In this document: in pieces, positions 1,758 to 5,617 of the stretch
How the letters are laid out: every line of letters starts with the position of its first letter
Position numbering within the stretch: position 1 is the stretch's first letter
Assembly (NCBI GenBank): GCA_021782055.1
Contig: JAJXVP010000188.1
Span: forward strand, 1 to 5,617
Direction of reading: 5' to 3'
Source: a bacterium
GTDB lineage: Bacteria; Spirochaetota; Spirochaetia; JABEVK01
DNA: 5,617 bases
The notes under the pieces: model-generated
Databases searched by the model: none
Told to the model about the DNA's origin: nothing
Seen by the model: the letters and a program-made list of their open reading frames with translations, nothing else
Made by a program: the position numbers and the translations under genes

Positions 1758-3233
1758 ATGATTGTGCCAGAATCGGACCTTATTACCATTTTGCGACAAA
1801 TGAACCCTTGGTGGCAGGGAACTCCCCTTGATGAAATACCCCGGTGGCACCGGGCGGCTTTCGCCGAATTGAGCCTCTGGATTCGAAATCCTCCTACCAG
1901 ACGGGCTGTTCTTTTGAGTGGTGCTAGACAAATCGGTAAGACGACCCTCTTCCTCCAAGCTATTGAGGACTTGATTTCTGAAGGTGTGCCACCGCAAAAC
2001 ATCGTTTATATAACTTTTGACCATCCTCTTTTCAAATTAGTCGGTTTGGATGCCATTCTACAATTGTGGCGAGCGATTGAACCCATCGGCCCAGGCCAAG
2101 AATTCCTGTTTATTGATGAAATTCAGTTCTTAACAGATTGGCAGGTGTGGGTAAAACATCAGGTGGATTTTCAAAAAGATCGCCGGATTGCCCTGACCGG
2201 CTCGGCAACACCCTTGGTTTTAGAAGGACAGGAAAGCGGGGTAGGGCGCTGGCATACTATCCGACTGGCGACCCTTTCCTTTTATGAATTTTTAAAAATT
2301 CAAGGTCATCCTGAGCCTAAACTCCCCGAAGTGAACAGCTTGATTTCCCTGTTTAATTGGTCACAGGGAGAATTTTCCCGGGTGTCTCAGGTATCAGAAA
2401 ATCTCGTGGGTCAGTTTCACGAATATCTTCAACGAGGAGGATTCCCTCAGTGTGCCACAGCCACAAGCACAGCATGGGCTCAGAAACTTCTTCGGGAGGA
2501 TATTGTTGATAAGGTATTAAAAAGAGATATGACGGCTCTTTTTGGAGTCAGGCTAATCGTCGAATTGGAACACACCTTCCTGTACCTATGCCTCCATGGT
2601 GGAGGAATCCTTGACATTACAACCCTGTGTAGCAACTTGTCGGTAAAAAAGCCAACTGTCCTGAATTTTATAGAATTACTGACTGCTGTCCATTTAATCC
2701 ATAAACTCCCTCCCTTCGGATATGGAAAAGAAGTCCTCCGGGGAAAACATAAAGTCTATCTTGCGGATGCCGCCATTGGTCCCAGTGTTCTATCTAAAGG
2801 GAAGACCCTGTTAGAGGATGATACCCTATTGGGAAATGCCGTTGAAACAGCCGTTTTTAAACATTTGTATACCCGGTATTATGGAGTTAATGTTAACTTT
2901 TCCTATTGGAGAGGTAAGCAGGATCATGAAGTTGACATGATCGCTGAAGTTCAAAATAGGTTTGTTCCCTTTGAGGTCAAATATCGTGGACAAAAAACTG
3001 AACTTGGGGATTTGAAGGGATTAAAAGAATTCTGTGAGACGAAAGGGATTCAGAAAGGATATGTCATCACGCGGTCTATTTCCGATTTTGGACTCATAAC
3101 GTGGAATAGTAGTCTAATGGACCACCAGTTGCTTCGTATTCCGGCACCCCTCTTTTGTTATTGGCTTGGAAAATCAGAACTTGGATCTGCCAATAGCTTC
3201 CAAGACTTAGAAACACTTCAGGAAAACTTATGA
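1758..3233 (+). CDS. AAA+ ATPase with C-terminal DUF4143/PD-(D/E)XK-like domain, complete
   Basis: A 491-aa cytoplasmic protein. The N-terminal AAA domain has Walker A G55-ARQIGKT-T63 (GxxxxGKT), Walker B 116-121 (FLFIDE) and a sensor-like TGSAT at 147-151. The linker LSFYEFL (about 173-179) is typical of this family. The C-terminal domain contains a winged-helix region (about 285-320) and then a PD-(D/E)XK-like core: E391-V-D393 in QDHEVDMIAE and E406-x-K408 in VPFEVKY. The N-terminal NPWW motif (16-19) is common in relatives. Known relatives are poorly characterised; nucleotide hydrolysis is likely, while nuclease activity is only a possibility. The ATG at 1758 lacks a strong Shine-Dalgarno. 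A four-codon reading frame, ATG ACT CTA TGA (1750-1761), overlaps the start and could feed ribosomes to it. The gene ends nine bases from the stop of the convergent higA. It belongs to the same broad family as the partial gene at the left edge. Confidence 0.92.
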   Translation: MIVPESDLITILRQMNPWWQGTPLDEIPRWHRAAFAELSLWIRNPPTRRAVLLSGARQIGKTTLFLQAIEDLISEGVPPQNIVYITFDHPLFKLVGLDAILQLWRAIEPIGPGQEFLFIDEIQFLTDWQVWVKHQVDFQKDRRIALTGSATPLVLEGQESGVGRWHTIRLATLSFYEFLKIQGHPEPKLPEVNSLISLFNWSQGEFSRVSQVSENLVGQFHEYLQRGGFPQCATATSTAWAQKLLREDIVDKVLKRDMTALFGVRLIVELEHTFLYLCLHGGGILDITTLCSNLSVKKPTVLNFIELLTAVHLIHKLPPFGYGKEVLRGKHKVYLADAAIGPSVLSKGKTLLEDDTLLGNAVETAVFKHLYTRYYGVNVNFSYWRGKQDHEVDMIAEVQNRFVPFEVKYRGQKTELGDLKGLKEFCETKGIQKGYVITRSISDFGLITWNSSLMDHQLLRIPAPLFCYWLGKSELGSANSFQDLETLQENL

Positions 3234-3242
3234 CCGACAAGT

Positions 3243-3611
3243 TCAAGGGATGAAGACTGCCGGGGATACACCAAAGCGGGAGGCCAGCGACTTAATCTGT
3301 CTTACGTTCAGTTCACGCTTTCTGTTCAGAATCTCGGAAATAACACCTTGGCTCCCCACATCCGCAAGATCCTTCTGGCTGAGTCCGTGTTCTTTCATGA
3401 GTTCTTTTAAAACAGAAATGGGATCACCTAAATTTAATACTGACTGAGAATTCTCATAGGTCTCGATTAAATTTCCAACAACTTCCATTAAGCCAGCCAG
3501 CTCATGGCTTTCGTTGTTTCCAACTTCATCAATCAGAGAATCTAAAACCATAACAAGATGATCATAGCTCTTTTGATCATGTGGAACGGCTTTTTTGAGC
3601 TCAGAAAGCAT
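3243..3611 (-). CDS. higA: HigA-family antitoxin (XRE helix-turn-helix), without an adjacent toxin
   Basis: A 122-aa protein. Residues 64-122 are a helix-turn-helix domain of the HigA/XRE type, with the conserved core HGLSQKDLADVGSQGVISEI, then NRKRELNVRQIKSLASRFGV and a C-terminal SPAVFIP. The N-terminal 60 residues are helical and acidic (DSLIDEVGNNESHELAGLME), as in the COG5499 HigA group, and are expected to contact a toxin. The ATG at 3611 is chosen because a good minus-strand promoter at 3621-3649 would start transcription just before it; the in-frame ATGs at 3680, 3644 and 3632 lie upstream of or inside that promoter. In this group the HigB toxin gene normally sits directly upstream. 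Here that position holds a 62-bp repeat and the divergent mntA gene, so this is an orphan or solitary regulator. It is convergent with the ATPase gene. Confidence 0.82.
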   Translation of the reverse strand: MLSELKKAVPHDQKSYDHLVMVLDSLIDEVGNNESHELAGLMEVVGNLIETYENSQSVLNLGDPISVLKELMKEHGLSQKDLADVGSQGVISEILNRKRELNVRQIKSLASRFGVSPAVFIP

Positions 3612-3620
3612 TATGTTGCT

Positions 3621-3649
3621 CTTATATCTCATTTTGCTATACATGACAA
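3621..3649 (-). promoter_or_regulatory. Probable promoter of higA
   Basis: On the minus strand TTGTCA (plus-strand bases 3644-3649, 5 of 6 to -35) and TATAAG (3621-3626, 5 of 6 to -10) are separated by exactly 17 bases. Transcription would begin around 3614, so the ATG at 3611 would be read from a leaderless or nearly leaderless message. Confidence 0.55.
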
Positions 3650-3664
3650 TGCCATCCGTCACCG

Positions 3665-3726
3665 TTGCCAACGCCGGCATTGAGCGAAATTGCTAGGGAG
3701 TTAAAGCTCCGTTGAGCCAAGAAAGG
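3665..3726. repeat. 62-bp dispersed direct repeat, copy 1
   Basis: Aligned without gaps to 4790-4851, 53 of 62 positions match. The longest identical run is CCGGCATTGAGCGAAATT (3674-3691), followed by TTAAAG and TCCGTTGAGCC blocks. Inside it, GGAG (3697-3700) can pair with CTCC (3707-3710) around TTAAAG. The similarity weakens further right but may resume at TCGAT and TAGAATA (3753-3765). It lies between higA and mntA, exactly where a HigB toxin gene would be expected. I do not recognise the element. Confidence 0.75.
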
Positions 3727-3735
3727 GCACCATTC

Positions 3736-3764
3736 TTGCTTTGTCCAGTCTTCGATTGTAGAAT
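3736..3764 (+). promoter_or_regulatory. Possible promoter of mntA-hepT
   Basis: TAGAAT (3759-3764, 5 of 6 to -10) is preceded by TTGCTT (3736-3741, 3 of 6 to -35) at 17-base spacing. The -35 match is weak. The start site would be near 3771, at the Shine-Dalgarno, so the true promoter may differ. Confidence 0.35.
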
Positions 3765-3770
3765 AGATTT

Positions 3771-3775
3771 GGAGG
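3771..3775 (+). promoter_or_regulatory. Ribosome binding site that sets the mntA start
   Basis: GGAGG lies five bases before the ATG at 3781. It decides against the longer in-frame start (TTG at 3712), whose extra 23 residues would be encoded by the end of the repeat and the promoter region. Confidence 0.75.
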
Positions 3776-3780
3776 CAAAG

Positions 3781-4104
3781 ATGACGGCAATCGAGAAGAT
3801 GCAAAAAAATGGAATATCTATCGATGAAAAGACTATTTATGCCATTGTCTCCAAATACAAGGTACAAGAACTTTCTGTTTTCGGCTCGAGTATTCGCGAT
3901 GACTTCAACGAGGACAGTGATGTGGACCTGATCATCGTTTTCAAAGAGTCAAAGGATATTTCACTCTTTGACTTGATGGACATCCAGGATTTTTTTGAGA
4001 CCAAGTTTTCGCGCAAAGTGGACTTGGTAGAGCCTGATGGTCTACGGAACCCGATCCGAAGAAAGTCCATTTTGGAATCGAAAGAGATTCTCTATGTCGC
4101 TTGA
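3781..4104 (+). CDS. mntA: MNT-domain nucleotidyltransferase antitoxin, MntA-like
   Basis: A 107-aa minimal nucleotidyltransferase. The catalytic motif GSX10DXD is exact: G35-S36 in VFGSS, then D47-V-D49 in SDVDLIIVF. A third acidic residue, D81 in KVDLVEP, completes the usual triad. In the studied MntA/HepT systems this enzyme transfers AMP from ATP to a tyrosine of the HEPN toxin and so inactivates it; all residues needed for that appear present. The ATG at 3781 has GGAGG five bases upstream. The last 11 bases overlap the start of the HEPN gene, so the two proteins are made together. It is transcribed divergently from higA, with the 62-bp repeat copy between them. Confidence 0.9.
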   Translation: MTAIEKMQKNGISIDEKTIYAIVSKYKVQELSVFGSSIRDDFNEDSDVDLIIVFKESKDISLFDLMDIQDFFETKFSRKVDLVEPDGLRNPIRRKSILESKEILYVA

Positions 4105-4438
4105 AGACCGGGAAAGGTCTTACTTGATCGACATGTTGCAGTACTCCAGAGAAACCGTTGAACTGATTACCGGTGAGTCCTACGAAAGTTTTATCAAGAA
4201 TCGGGTCAAGCGGTTGGCAATTGAACGTCTCATAGAAATCATCGGTGAGGCAGTAAATCATGTTTCATTGAGCACACAGGAATCGATGTCAAAGATTGCC
4301 TGGTCCAGAATTATTGGTATGCGAAACAAAATCGCGCACGACTACGGCGAAATTCTTTCAGATCGGATTTGGGTTATCTCTAACACAAGTGTTCGTGAAC
4401 TCGTGGAATTGCTGGTTGGTTACGGCGTGAAAATCTAA
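4094..4438 (+). CDS. hepT: HEPN-domain ribonuclease toxin, HepT-like
   Basis: A 114-aa mainly helical protein of the COG2361 HEPN type. The RNase motif RX4HXY is complete: R77-NKIA-H82-D-Y84, inside GMRNKIAHDYGEI. R and H form the catalytic pair of HEPN RNases. The following Y is the residue that MntA-type partners modify with AMP. The family pattern LAIERLIEIIGEAVNHVS (about 41-58) is also present. The start at 4094 gives an 11-base overlap with mntA and a normal family length; an earlier in-frame start at 4037 would add 19 residues lying inside mntA and is unlikely. The only upstream ribosome-binding candidate is GAGA at about 4084-4087, so translational coupling is likely. Known relatives cleave tRNA or mRNA; the target here is unknown. 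The gene looks intact. Confidence 0.9.
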   Translation: MSLEDRERSYLIDMLQYSRETVELITGESYESFIKNRVKRLAIERLIEIIGEAVNHVSLSTQESMSKIAWSRIIGMRNKIAHDYGEILSDRIWVISNTSVRELVELLVGYGVKI

Positions 4439-4442
4439 CATT

Positions 4443-4589
4443 TTAAGCAACGTGTGCCACAATCGGCTTCAAAAACTGTCCTGCTACTATGGCTAAAACA
4501 AGATATTTCCTCCCGGTTGGAAACCTTTCATCAGCATTTGGAAAACCTTTGACGACCAAAAATCGGCCTCGAGTAGACCCAATTTTCAT
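4443..4589 (-). CDS. Possible 48-aa hypothetical protein
   Basis: The minus strand is open from the ATG at 4589 to a TAA at 4443-4445, giving 48 residues with a mixed, protein-like composition (for example GRFLVVKGFPNADERF and KYLVLAIVAGQFL). Its stop lies four bases from the hepT stop, a snug convergent fit often seen for real genes. Against it, there is no spaced Shine-Dalgarno (only AGG touching the ATG), no obvious promoter, and a stop codon ten codons upstream in frame. I do not recognise the sequence. It may be a genuine small gene, the tail of a decayed gene, or chance. Confidence 0.3.
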   Translation of the reverse strand: MKIGSTRGRFLVVKGFPNADERFPTGRKYLVLAIVAGQFLKPIVAHVA

Positions 4590-4623
4590 CCTGACTGCAT
4601 TGTCGCCAATGACAACCCATTAA

Positions 4624-4725
4624 CTTAAGTATTCACAAAAACAGTTCGCTACCTATATTGCTGAAAGTGACAAGTTGGGATACCTGTGGAGACATGGCTT
4701 TTTTTCTGGAGCCGATCCGGAATGA
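4624..4725 (+). pseudogene. Remnant of the C-terminus of an AAA-family ATPase (RloA/OLD-like group)
   Basis: An open frame of 33 codons follows a TAA at 4621-4623, has no upstream start codon, and ends in TGA at 4723-4725. Its tail, LGYLWRHGFFSGADPE, resembles the LGxLWxxGxxGG-type ends I associate with AAA ATPases encoded directly before DUF4276 genes. The TGA overlaps the ATG of the next fragment as ATGA, the usual coupling of such pairs. Nothing of the ATPase core (Walker motifs) is present upstream, since that space is filled by hepT and the minus-strand ORF. The identification is by pattern only and could be wrong, but the coupling to a DUF4276-like start supports it. Confidence 0.4.
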
Positions 4726-4808
4726 AGGAACTCGTATTTTTCTTGGAAGAAGATAGGTGTGTTTTTGCTGTTTTGCATTCTGTGAACCTTTGCCGAAACC
4801 GGCATTGA
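4722..4808 (+). pseudogene. Truncated DUF4276-family protein, N-terminus only
   Basis: The frame beginning ATG at 4722 reads MKELVFFLEE, which matches the start typical of one DUF4276 group, then continues for 18 unrelated-looking residues (DRCVFAVLHSVNLCRNRH) to a TGA at 4806-4808. Normal family members are roughly 200 residues long and continue with a conserved Ser/Ala-Leu-rich helix after this start, so the gene appears broken after about codon 10 (near base 4752). Its end runs into the second repeat copy. GGA at 4719-4721 does not give a clear ribosome binding site; start coupling to the upstream fragment is more likely. DUF4276 proteins paired with AAA ATPases are TOPRIM-like and linked to phage defence. 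This copy would be non-functional. Confidence 0.4.
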
Positions 4809-4851
4809 GCGAAATTCCAAGGGATTTAAAGTTCCGTTGAGCCCAGAGAGG
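4790..4851. repeat. 62-bp dispersed direct repeat, copy 2
   Basis: Same orientation as copy 1 at 3665-3726, 1,125 bases away, with 53 of 62 identical positions and no gaps. The internal hairpin is kept with changed bases: GGGA (4822-4825) against TTCC (4832-4835), where copy 1 has GGAG against CTCC. One pair changes from G-C to A-T and another from A-T to G-T, so pairing is preserved. Weaker similarity resumes at TCGATGTATAGAATA (4866-4880). It overlaps the end of the broken DUF4276 frame. Confidence 0.75.
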
Positions 4852-4903
4852 TTTGTTCTCAAGTGTCGATGTATAGAATAATTAAATATTCTAAATAATT
4901 TCC

Positions 4904-4972: not shown

Positions 4973-4987
4973 GGACAAAATTTGTCC
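4973..4987. promoter_or_regulatory. 15-bp inverted repeat before the WYL gene, operator candidate
   Basis: GGACAAA-A-TTTGTCC has two perfect 7-base arms around a single A. It lies 30 bases before the ATG at 5018 and about 40 bases downstream of the proposed -10 box. Many WYL regulators bind short inverted repeats in front of their own gene, so autoregulation is plausible. It is too short a hairpin, and lacks a T-run, to be a convincing terminator. Confidence 0.5.
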
Positions 4988-5017: not shown

Positions 5018-5617
5018 ATGAAGAAAGCCACCCTTAGTCCACAAGCCCTACCCGATTCACTTCGGGAGTATCAACCCAAGCACCGCCTCTTTTGGTATGT
5101 GGATCGGCTTACCCGTCACCCGTTGAAATCTATTAGAATCTCTGAAGCTGCTAAAGTTTTAGATGTTGACAAAAAAACGGTGAGGCGTGGGTTGCAGGAC
5201 ATCGCCGACCTTTTTCAAGTTTCCTTGAATATTCATGATGACCTCGTTCAAATTGCCGACCCACTCGGCTTTGATCGCCTGGATTTAGGCAGGACGTTTC
5301 CTTTTGACGATGTGTTCCTCTTTTTCTTGAAGGTCTGGGATGCCACGAGTTTGGTTCCGTTTGATCGAGCCTTGTTAGCCAGTGTCCGCGATAAGTTAAA
5401 AGACGTTGTTTCGCTCCGGGTTGAAGAGCTGATCGATAGGATTACCTTTCACCCCAAACTGCGACAAAAGGTCAAATCGCTAGAATTGCCGCGCCTTTTA
5501 GAAGCCTTCATTGATAATAAGAAAGTTAAGTTTCAATATGAATCGCTGAGTCGAGGTGCGACTCAGGAGGTGGTGGGCGACCCCCTAAAACTATTGCGTT
5601 ACGGTGATGATTGGTAC
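5018..5617 (+). CDS. HTH-WYL domain transcriptional regulator, N-terminal part (3' end outside window)
   Basis: The frame is open from the ATG at 5018 to the last base, giving 200 residues. Residues about 20-80 form a winged helix-turn-helix, with the recognition region ISEAAKVLDVDKKTVRRGLQDI (about 41-62). A middle helical region (about 90-160) follows. The WYL domain begins near residue 160 with LLEAFIDNKKVKFQYESLSR and reaches GDDWY at 196-200, so the window ends on the W-Y of the WYL motif itself. WYL domains sense small ligands or nucleic acids, and such regulators (BrxR/CapW types and others) often sit first in phage-defence loci. The ATG at 5018 is preferred to the in-frame TTG at 4982 because it starts just ahead of the fold and leaves the inverted repeat outside the gene, although its ribosome binding site (GGCGA) is weak. 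The gene it controls, apart from itself, is not visible. Confidence 0.85.
   Translation, partial: MKKATLSPQALPDSLREYQPKHRLFWYVDRLTRHPLKSIRISEAAKVLDVDKKTVRRGLQDIADLFQVSLNIHDDLVQIADPLGFDRLDLGRTFPFDDVFLFFLKVWDATSLVPFDRALLASVRDKLKDVVSLRVEELIDRITFHPKLRQKVKSLELPRLLEAFIDNKKVKFQYESLSRGATQEVVGDPLKLLRYGDDWY

Follow-up and report, generated by a model that had tools for sequence, protein, structure and literature searches.

A 66-base direct repeat on either side of an mntA-hepT gene pair in a spirochaete contig, tentatively read as the border of an inserted unit

Two copies of one 66-base segment lie in the same orientation on either side of a toxin-antitoxin gene pair, mntA-hepT (3781-4438), in a 5,617-nucleotide stretch of spirochaete DNA (contig JAJXVP010000188.1, here called the window). 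Copy 1 (3661-3726) ends 54 bases before the pair and copy 2 (4786-4851) starts 347 bases after it; both are on the plus strand, and 56 of their 66 bases are identical without gaps. Gene debris adjoins the repeat, and the same architecture stands around some HigBA modules in unrelated genomes. From this we infer that the copies bound an accessory unit, about 1.1 kb long and carrying mntA-hepT, that was inserted here, and that they are a passive scar of the insertion. We give this reading a probability of slightly less than one half. It fits the layout of the window, the divergence of the copies, the comparison with HigBA modules and the fact that no product or structure of the copies is detectable.

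The first-pass annotation of this DNA had reported 53 of 62 identical bases between 3665-3726 and 4790-4851, with an identical run of 18 bases. Both figures hold, 18 bases being the longest run, and the match reaches four bases further left. The repeat is far above chance: it scores 92, and the best of 500 dinucleotide shuffles scores 29. To the right, a gapped plus-strand alignment of 3736-3769, which contains a TAGAAT, with 4853-4883 might continue the similarity for about 30 bases with small gaps; 8 of 1000 and 21 of 1000 shuffles are equally good, and the continuation is marginal. The left flanks of the two copies are unrelated (789 of 1000 shuffles equally good). The copies have diverged by 15%, and the bracketed unit is 1125 bases long. 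The arrangement is that of a module-bounding direct repeat, i.e., same-strand copies flanking one gene module; as a single feature, two worn copies of one 66-base segment are ordinary.

What genes does the repeat bracket and adjoin? Both ends of the contig cut through genes, and we take it to come from a metagenome. In order, the window encodes a DUF4143 protein cut by the contig start; a DUF6364-like small protein (scoring just under its cut-off) and a PIN-domain protein; a DUF2442 protein; an AAA/DUF4143 protein; HigA, on the minus strand; an MntA-like nucleotidyltransferase and a HepT-like protein; debris; and a WYL regulator. The two DUF4143 proteins (3-617 and 1758-3233) are different, and both match the PADLOC candidate family PDC-S01. 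Within the bracketed unit, the MntA-like nucleotidyltransferase (3781-4104, plus strand), the antitoxin of a type VII pair, matches Pfam NTP_transf_2 with 53.5 bits (cut-off 21), and the HepT-like toxin (4094-4438, plus strand) matches Pfam HepT-like with 66.0 bits (cut-off 23.5). Against the NCBIfam models MntA_antitoxin and HepT_toxin the two proteins reach 38.9 and 33.9 bits, in each case under the cut-off of 60. The unit looks like one intact gene pair plus debris. The debris comprises an open 58-codon piece on the minus strand (4443-4619), without a Pfam match, and a plus-strand stretch (4654-4751) with 69 of 98 bases matching L103, which holds the final codons of a gene and then the initial 10 codons of its neighbour.

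Each copy adjoins a damaged module: a higA without its higB, and a gene truncated after some 10 codons. This truncated gene is the frame that the first-pass annotation had called a broken DUF4276, its own name for a very short piece, and had placed shortly before copy 2. Copy 2 does start 34 bases after the similarity to L103 ends at 4751, itself 30 bases into that frame. Copy 1 had been said to occupy the place where a HigB toxin would precede higA (3243-3632, minus strand; Pfam HTH_3 and alignment with relatives). The lack of a higB is borne out by the relatives: a HigB match lies directly upstream in 67 of 80 related loci, and the best HigB match in the window has E = 0.075 and lies elsewhere. 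Neither inspection by eye nor tblastn finds a credible higB remnant beside copy 1. The longest HigA frame begins within copy 1, at 3680, and the relatives start further in. Compared with its closest relative, P0001, this HigA is 12 residues shorter close to the N-terminus, the gap falling between two AVP motifs, and is otherwise 98% identical in the alignment. A deletion between short repeats, in what is an orphan antitoxin, may account for the gap.

How often does a direct repeat flank such a module? Our comparison set consists of 80 genome loci around relatives of the window's HigA, chosen by similarity to that HigA. Some direct repeat pair of 45-399 bases is present in 40 of 145 segments of 5617 bases (72 loci), so a pair as such is not rare. 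A stricter filter (45-150 bases, both copies mostly outside ORFs of at least 80 codons, more than 300 bases apart) leaves 10 of the 145 segments; it would reject the window's own copies, because frames that are probably spurious cover them. HigBA lies between copies of a direct repeat (28-171 bases, at least 35 bits), each no more than about 700 bases away, in 9 of the 69 loci with enough flank, 11 having been dropped and higB starts being approximated from HigA positions. Flank pairs taken from different loci contain none (0 of 399). Pseudo-modules of the same size, placed in 74 of the same 80 loci, have flanking direct repeats in 20 of 648 cases (one-sided Fisher p = 0.0009 under the assumption that all are independent; the pseudo-modules, which occur in clusters within loci, are not fully so). 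Both sides of the comparison include repeats that lie within coding tandem arrays. Per locus the contrast is weak, with 9 of 69 HigBA loci against 10 of 74 loci that have at least one of about nine pseudo-modules flanked. With a limit of 1500 bases the counts are 9 of 68 for HigBA, the nine loci being partly different ones, and 65 of 1617 for pseudo-modules. There is an apparent excess of local direct repeats around HigBA, in a sample of one family and 69 loci. None of 16 testable HigBA loci in viral contigs has a flanking direct repeat. For mntA-hepT itself, none of 3 loci in genomes of the phylum of G001 has a direct repeat in 9-10 kb, and no mntA relative was confirmed in viral contigs.

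The nine repeat-flanked HigBA units are 965-1734 bases long, compared with 1125 in the window. Seven of them (L045, L046, L033, L009, L059, L077 and L032) resemble the window in spacing, in orientation and in having just two matches to the repeat in the fetched locus; the repeats of L070 and L053 recur elsewhere in their locus. These seven differ from the window in that they belong to another toxin-antitoxin family, their repeats are unrelated and 35-177 bases long, and an intact frame is joined to one copy of the repeat in L045 and L046. Searched genome-wide, the L046 and L033 repeats each return exactly two matches, which lie to the left and to the right of HigBA. The left copy in L046 is the 3' end of an intact 383-codon frame whose stop is 7 bases past the copy, and that in L045 is the 3' end of an intact 455-codon frame whose stop is 22 bases past it; read by eye, the frames are a glycosyltransferase and a transporter, respectively. 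Such a gene 3' end was found in 2 of 8 of the nine loci (L070 left out).

Several of the comparison loci have features of their own. HigBA lies between diverged copies of the 3' end of the upstream frame in L045 (9377-9553 and 10366-10542) and L046 (7885-7973 and 9053-9141). In L080 a single segment occurs four times in 5 kb next to HigBA (1-147, 1750-1896, 2763-2873 and 4641-4785), and by eye this segment reads as a gene 3' end with its stop. The L070 repeat (6840-6924, 8397-8483 and 9440-9527) is a family of 85-88 bases, with ends that are palindromic by eye, and is likely a MITE.

The main rival, which we judge somewhat unlikely, is that the repeat is a dispersed intergenic element (MITE- or REP-like) of a host outside the searched collections, and that two of its many copies lie in this contig by chance. 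The frequency of direct repeat pairs in the comparison segments, under either filter, is in its favor, and such families do occur in comparable loci: the L070 family has at least 40 scored matches (among 408 candidates) in its genome, and a 91-base repeat in L009, different from the one flanking HigBA there, has 17. The window repeat is like the L070 family in size and in its non-coding look, but the palindromic ends and the many copies of that family have no counterpart found here. No inverted pair of at least 7 bases has one arm at each border of the 66 bases, and on neither strand is folding clearly better than in shuffled sequence (z from -1.46 to +0.98).

The searches for further copies also argue against a dispersed element. 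An exact core pattern has no match in genome contigs of 84,980 species, and three exact core patterns have none in viral contigs. BLAST of plasmids, phages and E. coli genomes gives nothing convincing; the plasmid and phage matches are only partial, with E from 0.2 to 8. BLAST of 392, 395 and 188 genomes from three phyla finds no match among the best 2 to 4 candidates scored per genome (two for the long and the short DNA query alike in the groups searched with both), an empty answer that shows little without a positive control. In a fourth phylum, that of G008, 1 of 193 genomes matches (34 bases, 85%, E = 1.5e-4 for one genome). This match lies inside a long coding frame, in two contigs sharing that stretch; a gapped alignment with copy 1 runs further, and by eye the frame shares K-P-x-x-S-E-I-x-x-D-L with copy 2. 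Since 1168 genomes were searched, we take it as a chance match and not as a third copy. At least 857 consecutive bases are identical between contigs L137 and L138 of genome G894, perhaps an assembly overlap. Relaxed patterns return 4 and 18 stretches in viral contigs, mostly unlike the repeat beyond the pattern itself. Two of the viral contigs, L117 and L118, with 47 of 86 and 46 of 86 bases identical to copy 1 inside coding frames, were likewise taken as chance. In all, the genome and viral contigs, plasmids, phages, E. coli genomes and 1168 genomes of four phyla, among which the source genome is not included, contain no convincing third copy. No close relative with this region turned up either.

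The remaining explanations are less likely than either an insertion border or a dispersed repeat. Might the copies be remnants of coding sequence? As first noted, similar peptides can be read in both copies, in one plus and one minus frame. The copies could be the 3' end of a lost gene, independent of any insertion, with the plus frame reading PLPxPALSEIxRxLKxR and then a stop; we consider this improbable. The stop is kept in both copies, and this frame scores best of the six when copy is compared with copy. The same codon-level check for selection detects no constraint in any frame, however (best P = 0.083, for the plus frame), 6 of the 8 changed codons in the plus frame are non-synonymous, and a stop stands a few codons upstream of copy 1 in that frame. 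The plus-frame peptide has no match in plasmids, Pfam or 141 loci and a single match in phages, at E = 8. The minus-frame peptides, searched against 5.8 billion predicted proteins, give 4 candidates, none with E up to 10. None of the peptide searches yields a credible relative. Two further points are in favor of a coding remnant: two HigBA repeats elsewhere are gene 3' ends, as described above, and the helicase-like frame of L118, at its chance-level match, reads VLSEITRECKVF by eye in the matching frame, which resembles the plus-frame peptide.

A structured RNA fares no better. The first-pass annotation saw a small hairpin whose pairing is preserved by changed bases. In the hairpins that a folding program draws for copy 1, comparison of the two sequences shows that none of the 12 pairs is changed on both sides and that 3 are broken in copy 2; the compensatory changes expected of a conserved structured RNA are thus absent from these 12 pairs. 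An Rfam search of the window gives one match, away from the copies and at chance level (E = 1.2), and a tRNA reading of the repeat was rejected.

It is still less probable that the copies are a duplicated regulatory region, an operator or promoter common to mntA and the WYL regulator gene (5018-5617, plus strand, cut by the contig end; ATG at 5018; Pfam WYL 28.0 bits, cut-off 21.8). Each copy does lie upstream of a plus-strand gene, and the similarity may reach the TAGAAT box. BrxR-family WYL regulators are described as binding inverted repeats upstream of their own gene, with a second, putative site elsewhere in the island, but these sites have arms of 10-11 bases and a 5-base spacer, compared with 66 bases here (PMC9122601). 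A promoter scan makes no call within the copies or at their edges. A different sequence is the better operator candidate: a perfect palindrome, GGACAAA-A-TTTGTCC (4973-4987), occurs once in the window, 30 bases upstream of the WYL ATG, and from its sequence and position may be an autoregulatory operator of the WYL gene.

Finally, the copies are most improbable as known recombination sites, integron attC or Xer/pdif, bounding a cassette. An attC site has complementary R'' (RYYYAAC) and R' (GTTRRRY) elements at its two ends. The heptamer GTTGAGC near the right end of both copies fits GTTRRRY, and the spacing of the copies is like that of an integron cassette, but no complementary RYYYAAC (5 of 7 complementary bases) lies around either copy and no attC-like pair occurs in the window, where the mean density of the comparison loci predicts only about 0.4. 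Without a complementary partner, and without the strong single-strand fold expected of attC (z values above), attC is rejected. For Xer, we scanned one half-site with up to two mismatches, a scan that diverged sites would escape. It has no match at the copies, and its sole match in the window, at 2888 and with two mismatches, is below chance expectation. In Acinetobacter plasmids, pdif modules are reported to carry higBA, brnTA, relBE or vapBC enclosed by paired, inverted Xer sites; each module seems to be acquired, lost or inverted as a whole, its mobility being without experimental proof and the mechanism, according to the authors, not shown (PMC7885321). The window is like these modules in having a toxin-antitoxin pair between short repeated sites; pdif sites, however, consist of Xer arms with a 6-base spacer, stand in inverted pairs and are common to many modules (PMC7885321), whereas the window has one 66-base direct repeat, longer than a pdif site and without an Xer half-site at its copies. 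The repeat works like a module border but, by the half-site scan, is not a pdif site.

We therefore return to insertion of an accessory unit as the preferred reading. Inserted islands with direct repeats at their ends, in which a gene 3' end is duplicated, are known. The window is like these islands in having same-strand, somewhat different copies on either side of an accessory module; it differs in that the unit is only about 1.1 kb, has no integrase, and the target gene is not recognised in the window. A DNA segment that carried mntA-hepT together with a variant of a short target sequence would have recombined with the resident variant, leaving one variant of the target on each side of the pair. 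The 15% difference between the copies would reflect divergence before or since the insertion. The target segment may once have been a gene 3' end, as in the HigBA loci L045 and L046, and we count the stop codon common to both copies in the plus frame in favor of an insertion border. The copies themselves would be passive, with no transposase and no RNA or protein product, and at most a substrate for homologous recombination able to delete the unit. We count against this reading that no intact gene is joined to either copy, that the 347 bases between hepT and copy 2 contain debris, and that the yardstick, HigBA, is another family than mntA-hepT. The first-pass annotation had suggested a recombination or insertion element that shuffles or erodes toxin-antitoxin and defence modules. 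Its link to module borders fits, with an apparently intact pair flanked, damaged neighbours, and repeats commoner at HigBA than at pseudo-modules; an active element finds no support, in that no convincing third copy, no inverted arms of at least 7 bases at the two borders, no attC pair and no unusual fold were found.

Solitary toxin-antitoxin pairs in chromosomes move without bringing a recombinase gene, and by what means they do so is an unsettled question. It is tempting to speculate that pairs of several families travel as units of about 1 kb that have neither a recombinase gene nor dedicated sites such as pdif. Such a unit would carry a homologous piece of its target, sometimes a gene 3' end, and recombine there, leaving a slightly diverged direct repeat; the window would be an mntA-hepT example and the HigBA loci would be others. 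We regard this wider proposal as doubtful. Apart from PMC7885321, no title or abstract opening that we found reports repeats around toxin-antitoxin modules, and such a report may be published nonetheless. If the repeat is merely a dispersed host element, the finding is an ordinary one. If, on the other hand, such units do end at flanking direct repeats, sequence alone could reveal insertion events and what they targeted. The apparent excess of direct repeats around HigBA is the part that might deserve attention.
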